A DNA stretch of 5,582 bases. Origin: an uncultured Anaerosolibacter sp. (GTDB lineage: Bacteria; Bacillota_A; Clostridia; Peptostreptococcales; Thermotaleaceae). Location: positions 1 to 5,582 of the forward strand of contig CALECF010000184.1 in NCBI GenBank assembly GCA_937948705.1, given 5' to 3'. A program made the translations under genes and the position numbers. The notes below the pieces were generated by a model. It worked only from the letters and a program-made list of their open reading frames with translations, was not told where the DNA came from and searched no databases. Below, one piece after another: positions 154 through 5,582 of the stretch (the stretch's first letter is position 1; every line of letters starts with the position of its first letter).

Positions 154-228
154 GAGGGAGTAAATAATTTTATAGCATCATTTGCTGGGTGAAAAAAAGG
201 GATAATGGAATGGGTGTTGAATATATAA

Positions 229-247
229 GTGAGTAAATTTCATAATT
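229..247 (+). repeat. Left terminal inverted repeat of the insertion sequence
   Basis: GTGAGTAAATTTCATAATT matches the reverse complement of 1707-1725 at 18 of 19 positions; the only difference is the sixth base, T here and G in the right copy. Similarity stops abruptly on the inner side. Confidence 0.85.
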
Positions 248-289
248 CTTAGATATTGATTTTTCTAAAATCTAGCTGATACAAAAAGG

Positions 290-372
290 GGTTTCACCCC
301 ATAATGTCGAATAGATTAAGTGCGAACAAAACCTTCGAAAAAGGAGTGAAACCACTTAATGTATATTCGACA
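290..372 (+). promoter_or_regulatory. Transposase leader with structures that pair the ribosome binding site and start codon
   Basis: Two long-range pairings are visible. First, 305-322 (TGTCGAATA, G, ATTAAGTG) pairs with 353-372 (CACTTAAT, GTA, TATTCGACA), giving 17 base pairs around a small 1x3 internal loop. The start codon's A359 and T360 lie inside the stem. Second, 290-300 (GGTTTCACCCC) pairs with 343-353 (GGAGTGAAACC) at 10 of 11 positions, covering most of the Shine-Dalgarno AAGGAG at 341-346. The two pairings cross, so they form either a pseudoknot or alternative folds. A small local hairpin CCTT/AAGG (332-335/341-344) and a GGGGT/ACCCC hairpin (288-300) compete. By analogy with IS10, IS50 and IS200, such structures would limit transposase translation, especially on read-through transcripts. 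The complementarity is seen; the function is inferred. Confidence 0.6.
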
Positions 373-1576
373 AGTAACCTTTATTTCCTTTGAAGAAATC
401 ATCCAATTTCAACCACAAACCAAATTAGAAATGATTTTTTCAACACTAGATGTGAGCAAGCTTGCAAACGCTTTAAGAAAATCTAATGATTCTAGAGGCC
501 CAAAAGGTTATGAGCCTGCATCTCTAATTTACTCTCTCATTGCCATGCAAGTAGAACGAATGAAAGTAGTTAAAGATCTTGTTAGAAACTTAAAGCAAAA
601 CCCAGTATTACGCTATTGTTGTGGCTTTGATGTTTTGGGAGAAGTTCCATCAGAAGCAACTTTTAGCAGATTCTTAGCCAAACTTACTGAATCAAAGGAA
701 TTAGAAGATTTATTCTACTCCCTTGTCAAAGAAGCGAAAGAACTAAACATCGTTGATGGAACAACTGTGGCAATTGATTCTACGAAGCTAGACGCTTTTG
801 AAGCTCCAATACCAAAATCTAAAATCATTGATGATGGTACCAATCCAAACTGGGGTAAGAAAAAAGATACCCATGGTAATGATGTAAAGTGGTTCGGATG
901 GAAGCTTCATATTTTGTGTGATGTAAAAAGTGAATTGCCTTTAGATATATTGATAACACCAGCAAATGTTTATGATGGTACACAAGCAATACCTTTAATT
1001 GAGCAGTTTACCAAAAACTATAAAAATATCATTCATCCACTACATTATGTGATGGATTCAGGCTATGATTTTGAAAATACTTACAAGGAAATTGTAAGTA
1101 AATATAATGGATTGCCTATCATAGCATATAATCCTAGAGGAAGCTACGCTCCTCCCGAAGGGCTCGATGAAAACTTTGACCCTGTCTGCTCCGCAGGATA
1201 TAAACTTATCTATTGGGGCAAGGATGGAGATTACTTAAAATTCAGGTGTCCCCATGCCGTAGGCAGATGCGACTGTCCCTATGGAATGATTTGGTGCTCT
1301 ACATCCAATTATGGATATACCTTGAAACTAAACTATAAAGAAGATCCAAGACATCACGGTTATCCTTTAAGGTCTAGTATTGAATGGAAAAAGCTTTATG
1401 ATAGTAGAACAGCCGTTGAACGTTGCAATAGTAGGTTAAAAGAATATCTTAGTACGGATAACATAAGGTCTAGAGGTATTAAAAAGGCTAAAGTATACGC
1501 TCTATTAAACTGGATTGCATTAGTTGCTGGAACAATAGCCTTAAATACAGGCAAACAAATTAAGCAAGCAGCTTAA
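359..1576 (+). CDS. DDE transposase of the IS4/IS5/IS1182 superfamily
   Basis: This 405-residue protein should bind the element's terminal repeats and catalyse strand cleavage and transfer during transposition. The N-terminal part (about 20-125) contains the DUF772-like region with VPSEATFSRF at 97-106. The RNase-H-like catalytic core supplies D140 in AIDSTKLDAFE, D233 in YVMDSGYDFE and E354. The C-terminal Y-(2)-R-(3)-E-(6)-K signature is exact (Y347, R350, E354, K361). Between the second Asp and the Glu is an insertion with a cysteine cluster (C277, C297, C304, C306, C313) that may bind a metal. The ATG at 359 is preceded by AAGGAG at 341-346, a rather long 12-nt spacing in a highly structured leader. 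There is no frameshift or internal stop. It is certainly a transposase; the family-level label is less sure. Confidence 0.93.
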   Translation: MYIRQVTFISFEEIIQFQPQTKLEMIFSTLDVSKLANALRKSNDSRGPKGYEPASLIYSLIAMQVERMKVVKDLVRNLKQNPVLRYCCGFDVLGEVPSEATFSRFLAKLTESKELEDLFYSLVKEAKELNIVDGTTVAIDSTKLDAFEAPIPKSKIIDDGTNPNWGKKKDTHGNDVKWFGWKLHILCDVKSELPLDILITPANVYDGTQAIPLIEQFTKNYKNIIHPLHYVMDSGYDFENTYKEIVSKYNGLPIIAYNPRGSYAPPEGLDENFDPVCSAGYKLIYWGKDGDYLKFRCPHAVGRCDCPYGMIWCSTSNYGYTLKLNYKEDPRHHGYPLRSSIEWKKLYDSRTAVERCNSRLKEYLSTDNIRSRGIKKAKVYALLNWIALVAGTIALNTGKQIKQAA

Positions 1577-1706
1577 GACGATAAATAGATTATAGGATTA
1601 AAACTTAAGGAGGACTTCGTGATTAGCACAATTCTAGAAAGAATTTTTTGCTTCAAAATATGAAGCCTAAGAGATCATTCTTGTTTTTCTTTATTTGGAA
1701 AAAGCT
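1577..1706 (+). other. Non-coding right-hand segment of the insertion sequence
   Basis: This segment lies between the transposase stop and the right terminal repeat. It holds a weak AT-rich hairpin AATTCT/AGAATT (1630-1635/1640-1645) followed by T's to 1649, which could act as a poor terminator for the transposase. A second hairpin is GCTTCA/TGAAGC (1650-1655/1661-1666). A consensus AAGGAGG (1607-1613) lies 5 nt before a GTG (1619) that opens only 14 codons, ending TGA at 1661-1663. Confidence 0.5.
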
Positions 1707-1725
1707 AATTATGAAATTTCCTCAC
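1707..1725 (-). repeat. Right terminal inverted repeat of the insertion sequence
   Basis: AATTATGAAATTTCCTCAC is the inverted partner of 229-247, with 18 of 19 positions matching. Host sequence resumes at 1726, and the stop codon of the neighbouring minus-strand gene is at 1729-1731. Confidence 0.85.
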
Positions 1726-1728
1726 ATA

Positions 1729-2112
1729 CTATCCTATGGCTACAATGAAACTAGAAATTAAGAGAAGTAGAGAAATAGGTGCCCAAATTTTTTTCTCAAC
1801 CACACTCTTGGTTAAAAAGTTGAGTATTGTCGCTAGAATACAAAATCCGACAACCAACCAAATACCCGAGACTGCAATGCTATGAAAATTTTCAAATGCT
1901 AGTCTAGCCTTGATTATTACAATAACTCCCAATAATAGCAAAATGAATATTTGAAACACTGCCGCTATCCTCATTGGTATAGGGTATTTCCCTTTAAATC
2001 TCCCCCCCATGGCGTATTCACCCCAGGGAAATCCAATCACAAGAGCAAATTGGAACAGGACTACAACTACAATTAATGTAAAAAAAGATATGGCTGCTAT
2101 AGAAATATACAT
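1729..2112 (-). CDS. Small four-helix integral membrane protein, function unknown
   Basis: The protein has 127 residues, mostly hydrophobic, with four predicted transmembrane helices (about 3-27, 48-68, 80-104 and 109-126). Between helices 1 and 2 is the motif GFPWGEYAMGGRFKGKYP, which I recognise as the conserved loop of a widespread, uncharacterised family of small bacterial membrane proteins. The charged stretch before the last helix (SVVEKKIWAP) also fits that family. The ATG at 2112 is chosen because GGGAGG lies 6-7 nt upstream of it. An in-frame TTG five codons earlier would place the Shine-Dalgarno inside the gene. The C-terminus looks complete, although the insertion sequence ends only 3 bp beyond its stop. 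It lies downstream of the decayed hydrolase on the same strand and was probably co-transcribed with it. No biochemical role can be assigned. Confidence 0.8.
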   Translation of the reverse strand: MYISIAAISFFTLIVVVVLFQFALVIGFPWGEYAMGGRFKGKYPIPMRIAAVFQIFILLLLGVIVIIKARLAFENFHSIAVSGIWLVVGFCILATILNFLTKSVVEKKIWAPISLLLLISSFIVAIG

Positions 2113-2138
2113 ATTTATTCCTCCCAATTAAATACTGA

Positions 2139-2345
2139 TTAAGCCGCTATAATATACACTTCTAAATTATCCTTATTATAAAGTAAATTGGATAAGTAAT
2201 CCACACTTTTATATACTCGAAAAAAAGAGAATCCTGAGTTTCCCCAGAATGTAGAAAGAATTTTAATTTGCATATTTATTTTAACATTTCCGAGCTGAAG
2301 TGCTCTATTGTACTCTCCGTCTTTTTCAACTGGGCTCACAGGCAA
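2139..2345 (-). pseudogene. Orphan 68-codon frame, possibly a gene remnant
   Basis: An open frame lies between the hydrolase pseudogene and the small membrane protein gene, ending 26 nt before the latter's ATG. It opens just after an in-frame TAG, and the only early starts are TTG (2343-2345) and GTG, neither with a Shine-Dalgarno. Residues such as VEKDGEYNRALQLGNVKI look protein-like, while the later part is low-complexity and AT-driven. I recognise no family. It may be the tail of a decayed gene or a chance frame in a roughly 300-bp gap. A weak hairpin, GGCACAC/GTGAGCC with one mismatch, lies at its upstream edge (about 2334-2353). Confidence 0.25.
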
Positions 2346-2413
2346 GTGTGCCTATTGAGGAAATCTTCTGCCTAGAATCGTTCATCTTGGGACTATAATG
2401 ATAACTCTACTCA

Positions 2414-3135
2414 CTACTCATTGATTATTTCATGTAATAAACTGTTAATTTCATGAATAACCAAATTAGGTTTAGATAACTGAGGAAAATGTCCACTATT
2501 TCTTGCTATCGTTACTCTCCCTTGCCCCGAAAGACTTAATAATTCTATCTGATAGTTCATCCTTGCCTCTCTTATTGCCCTTGGCATAATCCAACCAAAA
2601 GCTAGTTTATTACCTGCAACGACAATAATAGGGATATTAGGAAATTCTCCTAACTCTTGAATTCGCTTTATTGTAGATAGTACATGATCAACTTCAGAAA
2701 GCTTATTTGGACCTGTTTCTTTTTTTCTCTTCGAATCAGTCAAGACATCCTTTATCGTTGAAGATTCGAGAAAAACAAGTCCGCGTACATCATCAGGATA
2801 GGTTATAGTAAATAAATGCGCAATAAATCCACCAAGTGAATGCTCCACAATGAGGCAGGGTGGTTCTATCTTCAAACTTAGTAATAATTCTTTTAAGTCT
2901 TTAACCATTACAATGCCGGCCTGTGGTTCCTTAGGCTTGCTACTTTTTCCAATGCCTAATCGATTATATGCGAATAATACATTCTCGTGTTCTAATTCCC
3001 CTCACACTTTTGACCAACCTTCTATTGGCCCCCAGCACCATTAATCAATATGATAGCCGGGCTTTTAGTACCCTTAACTGCATATTCAAAATCATTTCCA
3101 CTTACCGATATAATTTTCTTTTCTATTTGAATCAT
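2414..3135 (-). pseudogene. Alpha/beta-hydrolase pseudogene (frameshift plus internal stop)
   Basis: Restoring one base gives a normal 240-residue alpha/beta-hydrolase starting at the ATG at 3133-3135, with GGAGG 5 nt upstream. The first 36 codons (MIQIEKKIISVSGNDFEYAV to the oxyanion-type NGAGG) then shift frame at a G5 run (C5 at 3029-3033 on plus), where one base appears lost. Reading continues in the new frame (PIEGWSKV), hits TGA at 3002-3004 where Trp is expected, and resumes GELEHENVLFAYNRLGIGKSS. The nucleophile elbow reads VEHSLGG (Ser about 100), where the family has GHSLGG; GAG could come from GGG by G-to-A. The catalytic His is probably His216 in NSGHFPQ; the acid residue is unclear. 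The 164-residue open frame from 2908 lacks the oxyanion loop and should not fold. It was probably a soluble esterase-like enzyme, substrate unknown. Confidence 0.88.
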
Positions 3136-3175
3136 TTTACCCTCCAAAAACAATCTTACACTGAATACTAAAAAT

Positions 3176-3194
3176 ATTATACAATACCATTATA
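3176..3194 (-). promoter_or_regulatory. Possible -10 elements for the hydrolase/membrane protein transcript
   Basis: Two perfect TATAAT hexamers read on the minus strand (plus 3176-3181 and 3189-3194), about 40-60 nt upstream of the hydrolase ATG. Neither has a good TTGACA-like partner 16-18 nt upstream; the best for the proximal one is TACAAA. The region is AT-rich, so chance matches are plausible. Confidence 0.35.
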
Positions 3195-3309
3195 CGAATT
3201 TGTAGATTTCCTATCCTTTTCGCCCATTTGTTGTATTTCTGCGTAGAAGTGCAACCCCCTTAACAAAATAAAATCTCATATATAAATCTGAGGGAACATA
3301 TATAACTCT

Positions 3310-3351
3310 CTAAACCCGCTCTATCAGCGCGACACACTCCACATGGCTCGA
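3310..3351 (-). pseudogene. Remnant of the 3' end of a RumA/RlmD-family rRNA uracil methyltransferase gene (copy A)
   Basis: The minus strand reads SSHVECVALIERV then TAG. This matches the characteristic C-terminus of 23S rRNA (uracil-5-)-methyltransferases of the RumA/RlmD family; from memory, the E. coli protein ends DMFPHTGHLESMVLFSRV-K, and clostridial members have HVECV. The rest of the gene is absent. Two in-frame stops lie within 14 codons upstream, beyond which MDIFPLT appears in the same frame. The first 24 bp (3322-3345) recur at 5289-5312. The scrap is too short for a functional gene. It fits a displaced 3' end left by integration of a mobile element into a rum gene. Confidence 0.6.
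3322..3345. repeat. Direct repeat, copy A (att-like, rum 3' end)
   Basis: This matches 5289-5312 at 21 of 24 positions in the same orientation, including an exact 14-mer (ACACACTCCACATG at 3332-3345 and 5299-5312). The three differences are all transitions. Similarity ends abruptly at the 3345/5312 side. On the other side the DNA diverges but the encoded residues (LI-x-RV) still match. Confidence 0.75.
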
Positions 3352-3517
3352 GACGACAGCATTGATGTCTTACACTGATTTTGACCCTTACGTTAGTGGG
3401 AATATGTCCATTGAACTATTCACATTTTTCCTTTCTCCATGAACCTTGGGGATACAAAAAAGGTGTTCATAAAGTTTGGTGCAGACTTGGCAGCTGTGTT
3501 GATAAATGACTTTCATG

Positions 3518-4117
3518 CTAACATTCATAGCGGCTTAAAAATGTATTAATTATTTCATTCAATAAATAATCAGCGTGTTTTAAGCTTTCACCATCCGTGA
3601 ATAAAGCCGACCAGGTTATACAACCTTCAACCATTCCATAAAAAATTCGAGCAGCAAGTTCCGGAGATTCAAAACTAAGTTTATGATCCTCCTTTGCAGA
3701 ATCAAGCCACTGTATAAGTGCTTTATGGGGAGCATACTGGTTCCGTGTGCCTTTGCCAAAATCAATATCCATTAAAAAAACGGAGGTCAGCAATTTTGAT
3801 AAACCCCTGCGGATAGGATCGTTGATTAAATACAATTCAGCCTCGGCGAATTTCTTCAGCTGCTCACCAAGGGATAAATCTTTTGAGTATTTGATGGGCT
3901 TTATCTCATCACGTTGTTTTAGGAAATCAGCTACAATTGCCTGAAAAAGGCTTTCTTTGCTTGTAAAGTGGTTGTAGATGGTACGTTTTGATACGCCTGC
4001 TACTTCCGCAATTTTATCCATACTTGAATTATCGAAACCATTTTCAATTAAAACCTTTATGGCTCCTTCCAAAATTATTTGGTGCTTCAAACTGGTATCC
4101 CTTTTTTTTCTTGGCAT
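3518..4117 (-). CDS. TetR/AcrR-family transcriptional repressor
   Basis: A 199-residue, one-component regulator: an N-terminal DNA-binding domain and an all-helical C-terminal domain that binds a small ligand and dimerises. The helix-turn-helix occupies about residues 30-53, with the family-typical MDKIAEVAGVSKRTIYNHF followed by TSKESLFQAIV. The C-terminal half (about 75-195) resembles the AefR-like TetR C-terminal group, but the ligand cannot be read from it. The ATG at 4115-4117 has AAGGAG 8-10 nt upstream. It is divergent from the DUF4386 gene, and the 155-bp gap carries two matching palindromes, so it most likely represses both itself and its neighbour. No terminator is obvious after its TAG. 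Length and domain order are normal and the gene looks intact. Confidence 0.93.
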   Translation of the reverse strand: MPRKKRDTSLKHQIILEGAIKVLIENGFDNSSMDKIAEVAGVSKRTIYNHFTSKESLFQAIVADFLKQRDEIKPIKYSKDLSLGEQLKKFAEAELYLINDPIRRGLSKLLTSVFLMDIDFGKGTRNQYAPHKALIQWLDSAKEDHKLSFESPELAARIFYGMVEGCITWSALFTDGESLKHADYLLNEIINTFLSRYEC

Positions 4118-4139
4118 TGATAACTCTCCTTAAAATAAA

Positions 4140-4157
4140 TTGCACTAATCAGTGTAA
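4140..4157. promoter_or_regulatory. Operator site 1 for the TetR-family repressor
   Basis: TTGCACTAATCAGTGTAA contains the palindrome CACT-AATC-AGTG (4143-4154), with outer T-A matches and one mismatched pair. It lies just upstream of the -35 box at 4165 and 22 bp before the TetR start codon, so binding here should block TetR transcription or its leader. Its half-sites are identical to those of site 2. Confidence 0.7.
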
Positions 4158-4164
4158 TTTATTG

Positions 4165-4193
4165 TTGACAGCAATTATATTACACTGTATAGT
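4165..4193 (+). promoter_or_regulatory. Sigma-A-type promoter of the DUF4386 gene
   Basis: A perfect -35 TTGACA (4165-4170) and a -10 TATAGT (4188-4193, one change from consensus) are separated by 17 bp. Transcription should start near 4200, giving a leader of about 70 nt. The -10 box lies inside operator site 2 and the -35 box follows site 1, an arrangement expected of a tightly repressed promoter. Confidence 0.85.
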
Positions 4194-4196
4194 GTA
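4181..4196. promoter_or_regulatory. Operator site 2 for the TetR-family repressor, overlapping the -10 box
   Basis: TACACTGTATAGTGTA has two perfect 6-bp inverted arms around a 4-bp centre. Its centre is exactly 40 bp from that of site 1, close to four helical turns, so two dimers would bind on the same face of the DNA. It covers the -10 element of the DUF4386 promoter. Confidence 0.75.
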
Positions 4197-4243
4197 CTTA
4201 AAAATAGTATTTATTGCAAGATTAAATTGTGCTGGCCGTCCAA

Positions 4244-4265
4244 CAAATAACTACTATTTGGGGGG
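4244..4265 (+). promoter_or_regulatory. Leader hairpin and ribosome binding site of the DUF4386 gene
   Basis: A perfect hairpin CAAATA/TATTTG (4244-4249/4255-4260, loop ACTAC) ends where the G-run GGGGGG (4260-4265) begins. The G-run is 7 nt before the ATG at 4273 and serves as an atypical Shine-Dalgarno. It decides the start: the frame is open far upstream to 3988, but that part overlaps the promoter and the TetR gene. Confidence 0.55.
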
Positions 4266-4272
4266 ATACAAT

Positions 4273-4962
4273 ATGATTATTAAGGATGGATATACAAGAA
4301 ACAGATTTTCGGTCGCTTTAGGTGGAGCATTGTTTTTACAGGCTATAACATCTTTGGCCAGCGGAACATTATTTCTTAGCCCTTTCAGCGATAAAAGTGA
4401 TATTGTAAAAATAATGCTCCACACAGCTTCAAATCAGGCAATCGCACATTTTACTATATTTTTGGACATTGTCACTGCTTTTGTTATCGTTTGGTTGGGT
4501 GTGTTACTTTTCAGCTTGCTGCGAAAAGCCAATCAGGTCTGGGCAACAACTGCACTAGCCTTTTACATAGTGGAAGCAGGTATACTTATTGTAAGTAAAT
4601 TTTTAGAGTATGCCCTAGTTCAGGTCAGTGATGCCTATTCAGCAAACAACGATAAGGTACTTGAAACAATAGGCCAGATATTGCTTAATGTGAAGGATTT
4701 TTCATACAGTATGCATATTGTACCTTTTGGGATAGGTGCAATTTTATTTTACTATTTATTATATAAAATCAAGGCTATACCGTCATGGCTTTCACTTTGG
4801 GGTCTGATAGCAGTTATACCGGTGCTTTTTGGTACACTTTTAAACACTTATGGCGTTGAGGTACCATTTATCGTAATGCTGCCCTATGTGCCATTTGAAT
4901 TCTTTGCTGGTGGATATATTTTGATAAAAGGCTTACCAGATAAAACACTTGTTGAACAATAA
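4273..4962 (+). CDS. DUF4386-family integral membrane protein
   Basis: A 229-residue protein that I recognise as the DUF4386 family, a group of roughly 230-residue bacterial membrane proteins of unknown biochemical function. Six hydrophobic helices are visible (about 13-37, 59-83, 90-115, 145-165, 171-192, 197-220). Family-typical features include the N-terminal ALGGALFLQAITSLASGTL, the helix DIVTAFVIVWLGVLLFSLL, the YSMHIVPFGIGAILFYYLLYK stretch (split by its Pro-Phe-Gly), PSWLSLWGLIA, and a C-terminal PFEFFAGGYILIKG. It acts in the cytoplasmic membrane. Genes of this family are often paired with a TetR-type regulator, as here. The divergent regulator and the operator-covered promoter suggest ligand-induced expression, but the signal and any transport or protective role are unknown. 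No terminator is apparent after its TAA. The gene looks intact. Confidence 0.88.
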   Translation: MIIKDGYTRNRFSVALGGALFLQAITSLASGTLFLSPFSDKSDIVKIMLHTASNQAIAHFTIFLDIVTAFVIVWLGVLLFSLLRKANQVWATTALAFYIVEAGILIVSKFLEYALVQVSDAYSANNDKVLETIGQILLNVKDFSYSMHIVPFGIGAILFYYLLYKIKAIPSWLSLWGLIAVIPVLFGTLLNTYGVEVPFIVMLPYVPFEFFAGGYILIKGLPDKTLVEQ

Positions 4963-5072
4963 GATATTTCTTCTGTTTATCCATTCGGTCTATGAAATAA
5001 CCACTTTGAAAAACGAAAGATGGAGTATCATTGATAAGATAGAAAACTGTGAAGATAATTGATTATAGTTAC

Positions 5073-5179
5073 ATCTAACCTGTCTCCTCAAGACCTATAA
5101 AAATAGGCGTTATCTAACCTATCAACTCAACCCTGTCACCTGCAGGTCAGTAGATATGTTACCACAAACTATAAAAATA
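5073..5179. repeat. Cluster of short imperfect direct repeats
   Basis: ATCTAACCT occurs at 5073-5081 and 5112-5120, each followed at similar distance by a CTCAA. CTATAAAAATA occurs at 5095-5105 and 5169-5179. The first of these is inside a small perfect hairpin CCTAT-AAAA-ATAGG (5094-5107). The pattern suggests two diverged copies of a longer unit with an insertion in one of them. No function is evident. Confidence 0.5.
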
Positions 5180-5270
5180 AGGGTTTCCTGACATTAACAC
5201 CTCCGGTAACGAAGCCGAGAGAAAAACGCAATGTCTGGGAACCCTTTGCTTATGAGCATTTTCAGGCCTT

Positions 5271-5327
5271 CTATTTCTCCACCCTTGATATCAACACAAC
5301 ACACTCCACATGCATAGTGTGTTGCAG
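5271..5327 (-). pseudogene. Remnant of the 3' end of a RumA/RlmD-family gene (copy B)
   Basis: The minus strand reads LQHTMHVECVVLISRVEK then TAG. The core HTMHVECVVLISRVEK corresponds to the C-terminal tail of RumA/RlmD 23S rRNA uracil-5-methyltransferases (compare the E. coli ending HTGHLESMVLFSRV, from memory). An in-frame TAA lies immediately upstream and no catalytic part of the gene is present. It differs from copy A both in the bases and in the length of its tail, so the two copies were not made by a recent local duplication; they look like ends of two related but distinct rum alleles. Confidence 0.62.
5289..5312. repeat. Direct repeat, copy B (att-like, rum 3' end)
   Basis: Partner of 3322-3345 in the same orientation: 21 of 24 identical, three transitions, 1,967 bp apart. 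The TetR and DUF4386 genes are the only intact genes between the copies. Confidence 0.75.
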
Positions 5328-5392
5328 TTAGCATAAGTATTGCTGTCTTGATATTCTATAAGGTCAAAACCTTTTCTATTATCAATATTGCC

Positions 5393-5418
5393 CGAGGGAC
5401 AATGCACCTGTCCCCTCG
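5393..5418. repeat. REP-like GC-rich hairpin
   Basis: CGAGGGACA (5393-5401) pairs with TGTCCC-C-TCG (5409-5418, one bulged C) around the 7-base loop ATGCACC. It is strikingly GC-rich against its AT-rich surroundings. GGGACA...TGTCCC palindromes of this form are typical of repetitive extragenic palindromes mobilised by REP-associated tyrosine transposases in several phyla. No T-run follows on either strand, which argues against a terminator. Only one copy is present in the window. Confidence 0.55.
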
Positions 5419-5582
5419 TCCCATTGCCTTAATTCGAGCTTGAGTTATGATAATCCTTTTAAATCTGTCTTAGTCAATTTATTCTGATGACAATGGTTCA
5501 ATCTAGAAATCAAATCAAAACACTCTGTATCATCGGCTTTTTACCTTAAAACTACTTAAGTGATCTTCTAATTCATTAAATT

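Follow-up and report, generated by a model that had tools for sequence, protein, structure and literature searches.

The window analysed here, the whole 5,582-nucleotide stretch of contig CALECF010000184.1 from an uncultured Anaerosolibacter sp., contains the genes of a TetR/AcrR-family regulator and a DUF4386 protein, bracketed by two short sequences that resemble the 3′ end of the methylase gene rlmD (rumA) (Table 1). These sequences, scrap 1 and scrap 2, include a direct 24-bp repeat (3322–3345 and 5289–5312) identical at 21 of 24 positions. All three mismatches are G/A transitions, two of them synonymous when read on the minus strand and one exchanging alanine and valine. On that strand scrap 1 reads HVECVALIERV and a stop codon from 3345 to 3310, and scrap 2 reads HVECVVLISRVEK and a stop codon from 5312 to 5271. 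Neither is preceded by the body of rlmD, the residues just upstream being 'DINAVVSS' and 'LQHTM', respectively. A recount and the in-frame reading confirmed what an earlier note, made from the letters of this DNA alone, had described: a transition-only repeat pair, each copy an RlmD/RumA C-terminus followed by a stop and detached from its gene.

Taken alone, the repeat is weak evidence, because the best direct 24-mer match also reached 21 of 24 positions in 2 of 60 dinucleotide shuffles of the window; a high significance for the repeat by itself was accordingly dropped. The identity of the scraps as rlmD tails comes from comparison with other genomes. Scrap 2 is also more than a 24-bp scrap, since it is followed by ~210 bp of conserved sequence, and the same sequence stands behind intact rlmD genes elsewhere.

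Table 1. Positions of the rlmD tails, unit ends and cargo genes in the window
Feature	Position	Strand	Basis
Scrap 1, putatively displaced rlmD C-terminal codons, HVECVALIERV-stop	3310–3345	−	Motif same as rlmD tails in other genomes
Distal (rlmD-far) end, type A, GACATCAAT-N8-CTCGAGC	3346–3369	−	Abuts scrap 1; 14 of 16 relaxed matches are followed by a tail start
TetR/AcrR-family regulator, 199 aa (PF00440, PF14246)	3518–4117	−	Pfam
Operator-like palindrome TTGCACTAATCAGTGTAA between divergent genes	4140–4157	.	Sequence; putative function
Second operator-like palindrome TTACACTGTATAGTGTAC	4180–4197	.	Sequence; putative function
DUF4386 protein (PF14329) of 229 aa, a probable membrane protein	4273–4962	+	Pfam
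Proximal (rlmD-near) end module, conserved and non-coding: terminator-like hairpin, then GTTGAG repeats	5061–5270	−	Alignment to other loci
Inverted copy, 142 bp behind the tail, resembling the rlmD sequence that precedes it (VDMLPQT)	5148–5170	+	Motif comparison
Hairpin after scrap 2, GGGTTCCCAGACATT / AATGTCAGGAAACCC, then T-rich run	5181–5244	−	Covariation in alignment
Scrap 2, rlmD tail HVECVVLISRVEK-stop, interpreted as a substitute supplied by the unit	5271–5312	−	In-frame reading, tail alignment, repeat comparison
Presumed distal end of a second, later element	5313–5582	.	End type '-'; weak 71-bp match (5458–5528) to a unit interior in L055/G354

rlmD tails in other genomes and the two ends of the unit

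The distribution of such tails was determined in 391 genomes from the class of a Herbinix metagenome-assembled genome (MAG), which we take to be Clostridia. A degenerate form of HVECV[AV]LI matched at 79 places in 52 of the 391 genomes, all of which were fetched and read in frame, and the reversed pattern used as a control had no match in the same 391 genomes. Twenty-eight of the 79 tails end a long open reading frame (ORF), and one such ORF that was checked matched the RlmD model TIGR00479 (E=7e-155). The other 51 lack a long gene body and are referred to as orphans. In two of these (L096, and L105 at 1544) an rlmD-like VDMFP directly precedes the tail, and they may represent broken genes. 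When more stretches were added and the pattern was loosened, which gave 3 control matches in 52 genomes, the list grew to 110 tails including the two of the window, this list omitting an uncounted number of tails read through for more than 40 codons downstream.

In 30 of the 32 pairs of an attached and an orphan tail at most 300 kb apart, the orphan shared the strand of rlmD and lay downstream of it, which is the arrangement that the earlier note had predicted; 2 pairs lying further apart were left out of this count. The exceptions were an inverted tail in genome G284 and an orphan paired with a second rlmD gene on one contig. In the genus of G284, three of the five genomes searched have tails and the other two gave no tail match, and G284, G595 and G597, all of this genus, carry three different first units behind rlmD, a sign of turnover at the site. 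The view of the earlier note that the 3′ end of rum genes is an integration hotspot is supported by these orphan tails, together with an element end at scrap 1 and a conserved module at scrap 2.

Some of the sequences that immediately precede orphan tails can be grouped into recurring types. The rules for these types (A, B, C and D) are post hoc, and 32 of the 74 tails that lie outside the window and off long ORFs fit none of them. Type A, the commonest, has the form GACATCAAT-N8-CTCGAGC, and the window matches all 16 fixed positions directly before scrap 1, which is the single exact match in the window. A relaxed form had 16 distinct matches in the fetched loci (1.64 Mb with overlaps, 1.43 Mb non-redundant with the window included, chosen for holding tails), 14 with a tail start directly after and 2 without. 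The junction on the far side of the unit has the same form as in other genomes, where type-A ends meet the tail at the same base: scrap 1 abuts the type-A end exactly at the tail start.

At the other end of the unit, the module with its tail (5061–5312) aligns to L109 (83% over 272 bp), to L081 (82% over 245 bp) and to further loci down to 68%. Nucleotide identity is 75–83% to L109, L081, L054, L049, L055, L077 and L156, and 68–73% to the others. The stretch in L081 lies behind an intact rlmD. Alignments of 25 module sites (window included) and of 15 hand-picked ones have the same order of a hairpin, a T-rich run and GTTGAG repeats. Seven of 25 consensus pairs show a compensatory change, all seven within the stem of the 5181–5244 hairpin, and the fold z of this region was -3.4 on the plus strand and -1.2 on the minus strand. 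A search of Rfam gave no match at E≤1. The hairpin, with all the compensatory changes in its stem and a T-rich run behind it, fits a terminator for rlmD that an incoming element would have carried. Inverted copies of a VDMxP..T-like sequence lie behind 18 of the 79 other tails (at most 4 mismatches of 18, counted without a chance control), for example in L049, L077 and L081, often ~141 or ~102 bp behind the tail.

Consecutive tails on the same strand delimit 29 units, the window unit included. With the window excluded, a type-A far end was found in 9 of the 13 units that have the module at the near end and in 1 of the 15 that lack it (Fisher one-sided p=0.0008, an optimistic value because the rules were written after viewing the sites). 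Units from G595 and G597, found later, are not included in these counts; the module is absent from the G595 unit and present in that of G597, together with an A-like far end. The window unit, with a module (at 179) and a type-A far end, obeys the pairing.

Because module and type-A end go together elsewhere, the two scraps are better read as the boundaries of one unit, in which scrap 1 would be the tail displaced by the TetR-DUF4386 unit and scrap 2 the unit's own substitute tail. Scrap 2 would then have been cut from its gene by a second insertion, whose end from 5313 on fits no type. The earlier note had taken each scrap for a displaced gene end left by a separate insertion; two insertions, and the displacement of scrap 1, are retained in the present reading, and the origin of scrap 2 as a leftover of the host gene is not. 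The gene pair, likewise, had been called cargo or a leftover of an integrated element, and a small unit with two matching ends suits cargo better than a random leftover.

Cargo, recombinases and neighbouring features

The TetR and DUF4386 genes diverge from a spacer that holds two similar palindromes, and TetR may repress both genes. An AlphaFold2 model of the DUF4386 protein was nearly all helical (mean pLDDT 88) and had no match in the PDB at E≤0.001. PADLOC reported nothing for the DUF4386 cargo, no DUF4386 relative was found in viral contigs, and the window region had no DNA match among plasmids and phages. In 291 genomes of the Clostridia sample, two DUF4386 relatives were found at E≤1e-30, both 43–45% identical, and the 3.6-kb loci around these two hold no rlmD tail. 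A DUF4386 protein 98% identical to that of the window (P0001) is encoded on a contig of 4949 bases. A TetR relative stands beside, or at most ~1.1 kb from, DUF4386 in 9 of 11 loci with DUF4386 relatives. The pair is therefore old and did not arise at the rlmD site.

One of these associations was followed further. In L001, an Anaerolineaceae MAG, TetR (69% identical) and DUF4386 (51%) lie 1.3–2.1 kb behind an intact rlmD, and this locus (159–4142) gave the longest DNA match to the TetR region of the window (68% over 694 bp), with two ORFs between it and rlmD. It was rejected as a second copy of the cassette, having neither module nor type-A end (just loose matches near 13.7 kb) and carrying the genes reversed relative to rlmD as compared with the window. 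The proximity of rlmD in L001 may be coincidental.

Among the other small units without a recombinase match are units carrying a lone GNAT (G368, 0.62 kb), MerR and Hsp33 (G217, 1.8 kb), radical SAM, MazG and phosphoesterase genes (G284), or genes for a penicillinase-repressor-type regulator and an M56 peptidase (G287). In G241, a class II pAgo with SIR2 (L072, 2998–6001; PADLOC E=9e-206 and 1e-124) forms the main cargo of an rlmD unit of 3.8 kb, likewise without a recombinase match.

Recombinases were sought with 23 serine recombinase queries in stop-to-stop frames of at least 40 aa; tyrosine recombinases were covered solely by Pfam scans of 34 of the 57 ORFs in small units. No serine recombinase ORF of at least 40 aa was found in the window unit with the 23 queries. 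Among the other units of at most 9 kb, a serine recombinase ORF or fragment was present in 6 of 17 and none was found in 11. In five of these six, the ends are of type D and the recombinase is one of ~308 aa, whole or in pieces; the sixth holds a 53-aa remnant (G151). Unlike the other five type-D units, that of G082 gave no recombinase match. A 308-aa serine recombinase (L148, 12307–13230, in G048) is the sole ORF of at least 70 aa in a unit of 1.2 kb bounded by rlmD and an orphan tail, which makes this unit a minimal element.

Among type-A units larger than 9 kb, a tandem pair of recombinases of 522 and 530–532 aa was found in two of six (G284 and G151). The pair in G284 has resolvase, recombinase and zinc-ribbon domains. 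Its best-scoring model was CcrB, at 145 and 151 bits against a cut-off of 900; over CcrA, CcrB and CcrC the scores ranged from 69 to 151 bits, against cut-offs of 700 and 900. These proteins are thus related to Ccr without being Ccr. At type-C ends (L117 119–1846 in G150; L053; L156), among the matches listed, a single serine recombinase of 575–576 aa was found, the ORF of which continues into the displaced tail. A recombinase ORF running into the displaced tail is likewise described for streptococcal integrative and conjugative elements (ICEs) at rumA in passages of PMC4701971.

Several features of the window lie outside the unit. An intact-looking IS1182-type transposase gene (359–1576, plus strand; 405 aa; PF01609, PF05598) stands on the left; its nearest named relative, from which the IS1182 family name was taken, is 71% identical and comes from Crassaminicella indica. 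An alpha/beta hydrolase gene (2411–3139, minus strand) is apparently broken at ~3000–3050, and its C-terminal part (2414–2908) alone was listed as an ORF. To the right of scrap 2 lies the palindrome GAGGGACAATGCACCTGTCCCCTCG (5394–5418), which we presume to be similar to repetitive extragenic palindromes.

Proposed history of the unit

Both ends of the unit are present by sequence, namely the type-A distal end and the proximal module with its tail. Positions 3346–5312 (~1.97 kb) are probably a unit that integrated site-specifically at the 3′ end of rlmD, with the TetR-DUF4386 pair as cargo and no recombinase found, and that likely moved in trans. An incoming circle would have recombined at the final codons of rlmD. 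A new rlmD tail and terminator (scrap 2 and the module) would have come with the proximal end of the circle, leaving the methylase intact, and the old tail (scrap 1) would have moved to the far side, beside the type-A end. A second element would then have entered at the new tail and parted scrap 2 from the gene body. The recombination would most likely have been carried out in trans, with serine recombinases supplied by elements that share these ends. Mobility, trans action and the order of insertions are what we infer from the arrangement of tails and ends.

Several observations weigh against this history. Among the 13 module-bearing units, three end clearly differently on the far side and a fourth has an A-like end that is offset, and the end-type rules were written after viewing the very sites that they class. 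The contig stops at 5582, 270 bp to the right of scrap 2, which puts the rlmD body, predicted by the earlier note to lie to the right on the minus strand, and the second element out of view, and neither an empty site nor a circle was observed. The fetched stretch showed no rlmD at 10 of the 11 loci with DUF4386 relatives, L001 being the exception. End type and enzyme also correspond incompletely: the other four large type-A units hold a 524-aa recombinase with a 210-aa piece, a 222-aa piece, and in two cases no serine recombinase (G228, 14.9 kb, and G217, 23 kb), and G142 holds a recombinase pair without a type-A end. Action of such enzymes on the window unit would accordingly be a suggestion from the shared ends.

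The strongest alternative holds that a larger ICE, or an integrative and mobilizable element (IME), inserted with its own recombinases and lost all but its ends and two cargo genes, making the unit a cis-mobilizable element (CIME) in the strict sense. This account, to which we would give somewhat less than an even chance, shares the insertion history set out above and differs in the origin of the unit. Some large units of this end class do carry recombinase pairs or pieces, fragments are also found in small units (G241, G228 and G151), and the part of PMC5704250 consulted explains most such tandems by decay to CIMEs. Yet the window unit and 11 of the 17 other small units gave no match to even a fragment of a serine recombinase, and several units consist of one compact cargo set between ends (GNAT in 0.62 kb, MerR-Hsp33 in 1.8 kb). 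The window unit may thus be either a purpose-built cassette or a decayed element.

Formation of a composite through a transposon (the IS1182 copy at 359–1576) or through homologous recombination between rlmD tails, in place of a site-specific event, is very unlikely. The transposase gene does lie to the left of the unit and has a relative inside an rlmD unit in L077, but ~1.8 kb separates it from the unit, in other genomes the junction of type-A end and tail falls on one and the same base, and homologous recombination of tails would not make element-end sequences. It is scarcely credible that the scraps have nothing to do with element ends and match by chance, or are left over from an rlmD pseudogene or a duplication of the gene: the 2 of 60 shuffles would allow it for the repeat, but an element-end sequence sits exactly at the boundary of scrap 1, and over ~250 bp scrap 2 and its module can be aligned with rlmD-proximal modules of other loci.

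Integration of the window unit in trans would have a wider counterpart if the rlmD tail in Clostridia were the docking site of a cassette system, in which small cargo units with standardised paired ends are inserted and exchanged by Ccr-like serine recombinase pairs of larger elements acting in trans. We advance this tentatively and lean slightly against it. The cargo would include a regulator with a membrane protein, GNAT, MerR-Hsp33, pAgo-SIR2 and BlaR-like regulators, each unit having a substitute tail and often a terminator. If units do move in trans, anaerobes would possess a means of exchanging genes for defence, regulation and transport.

Relation to known systems

The end of rumA is a known insertion site in Streptococcus, Clostridioides difficile and Dehalobacter, according to passages of PMC4701971, PMC4320837 and PMC11578063, and a streptococcal phage at rumA is described in part of PMC4288039. 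The hotspot itself is therefore already known, and the novelty lies in small cassettes whose ends are paired. In the literature searched, from which most subscription papers and all preprints fell outside scope, no description was found of rlmD cassettes that lack a recombinase and have paired ends, no explicit definition of such ends, nor any paper treating both DUF4386 and TetR. The sequence rule also has a practical use: clostridial rlmD islands can be split into elements, each with a tail and module at one end and, at the other, GACATCAAT-N8-CTCGAGC ahead of the following tail. The authors of the Dehalobacter study state, in the portion consulted, that they could not delimit each internal element (PMC11578063).

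As far as the same passages go, the ICEs, IMEs and phages at rumA/rlmD (streptococcal ICEs, CTn5 of C. difficile and the Dehalobacter hotspot) share with the window unit the target gene and replacement of the RumA C-terminus, and with the wider set of clostridial units serine recombinases and tandem arrays (PMC4701971, PMC4320837, PMC11578063). Unlike them, the window unit is ~2 kb long, no integrase was found in it, and no transfer gene is among its two genes. ICEs and IMEs have their own integrase with relaxase or conjugation genes; here no serine recombinase was found, and Pfam assigned the two genes to TetR and DUF4386. CIMEs, as described in parts of PMC5704250, have two att-like ends, no integration or transfer genes and tandem accretion. 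In the window unit, likewise part of a presumed tandem, no integration gene was found, its two genes are not transfer genes, and its two end sequences are putative att sites. The unit differs in its compact cargo and in belonging to a class with characteristic paired ends; descent from an ICE or IME by decay would be hypothetical for it, and no parental element with this cargo was found.

The target in the window is of the rlmD type, since the tails are RlmD tails and an intact gene with such a tail matches TIGR00479, and not rlmH. The product of rlmH acts on rRNA. Excerpts of PMC6222049, which calls rlmH a tRNA methyltransferase gene, describe the cassette chromosomes of staphylococci (SCC) and enterococci (ECC) as islands of cargo genes that have paired large serine recombinases and occupy the 3′ end of a methylase gene, and the clostridial pair matches CcrB best. 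Neither ccrAB nor ccrC was found in the window unit, and the six scanned recombinases of related units score below the Ccr cut-offs.

The units also recall integrons in arrangement, and if the cassette system exists as outlined it would be a serine-recombinase counterpart of both integron cassettes and SCC. Integron gene cassettes are small cargo units set in a row behind one gene and are moved by tyrosine recombinases, whereas here the recombinases are of the serine type and the sites are the tails of a methylase gene.

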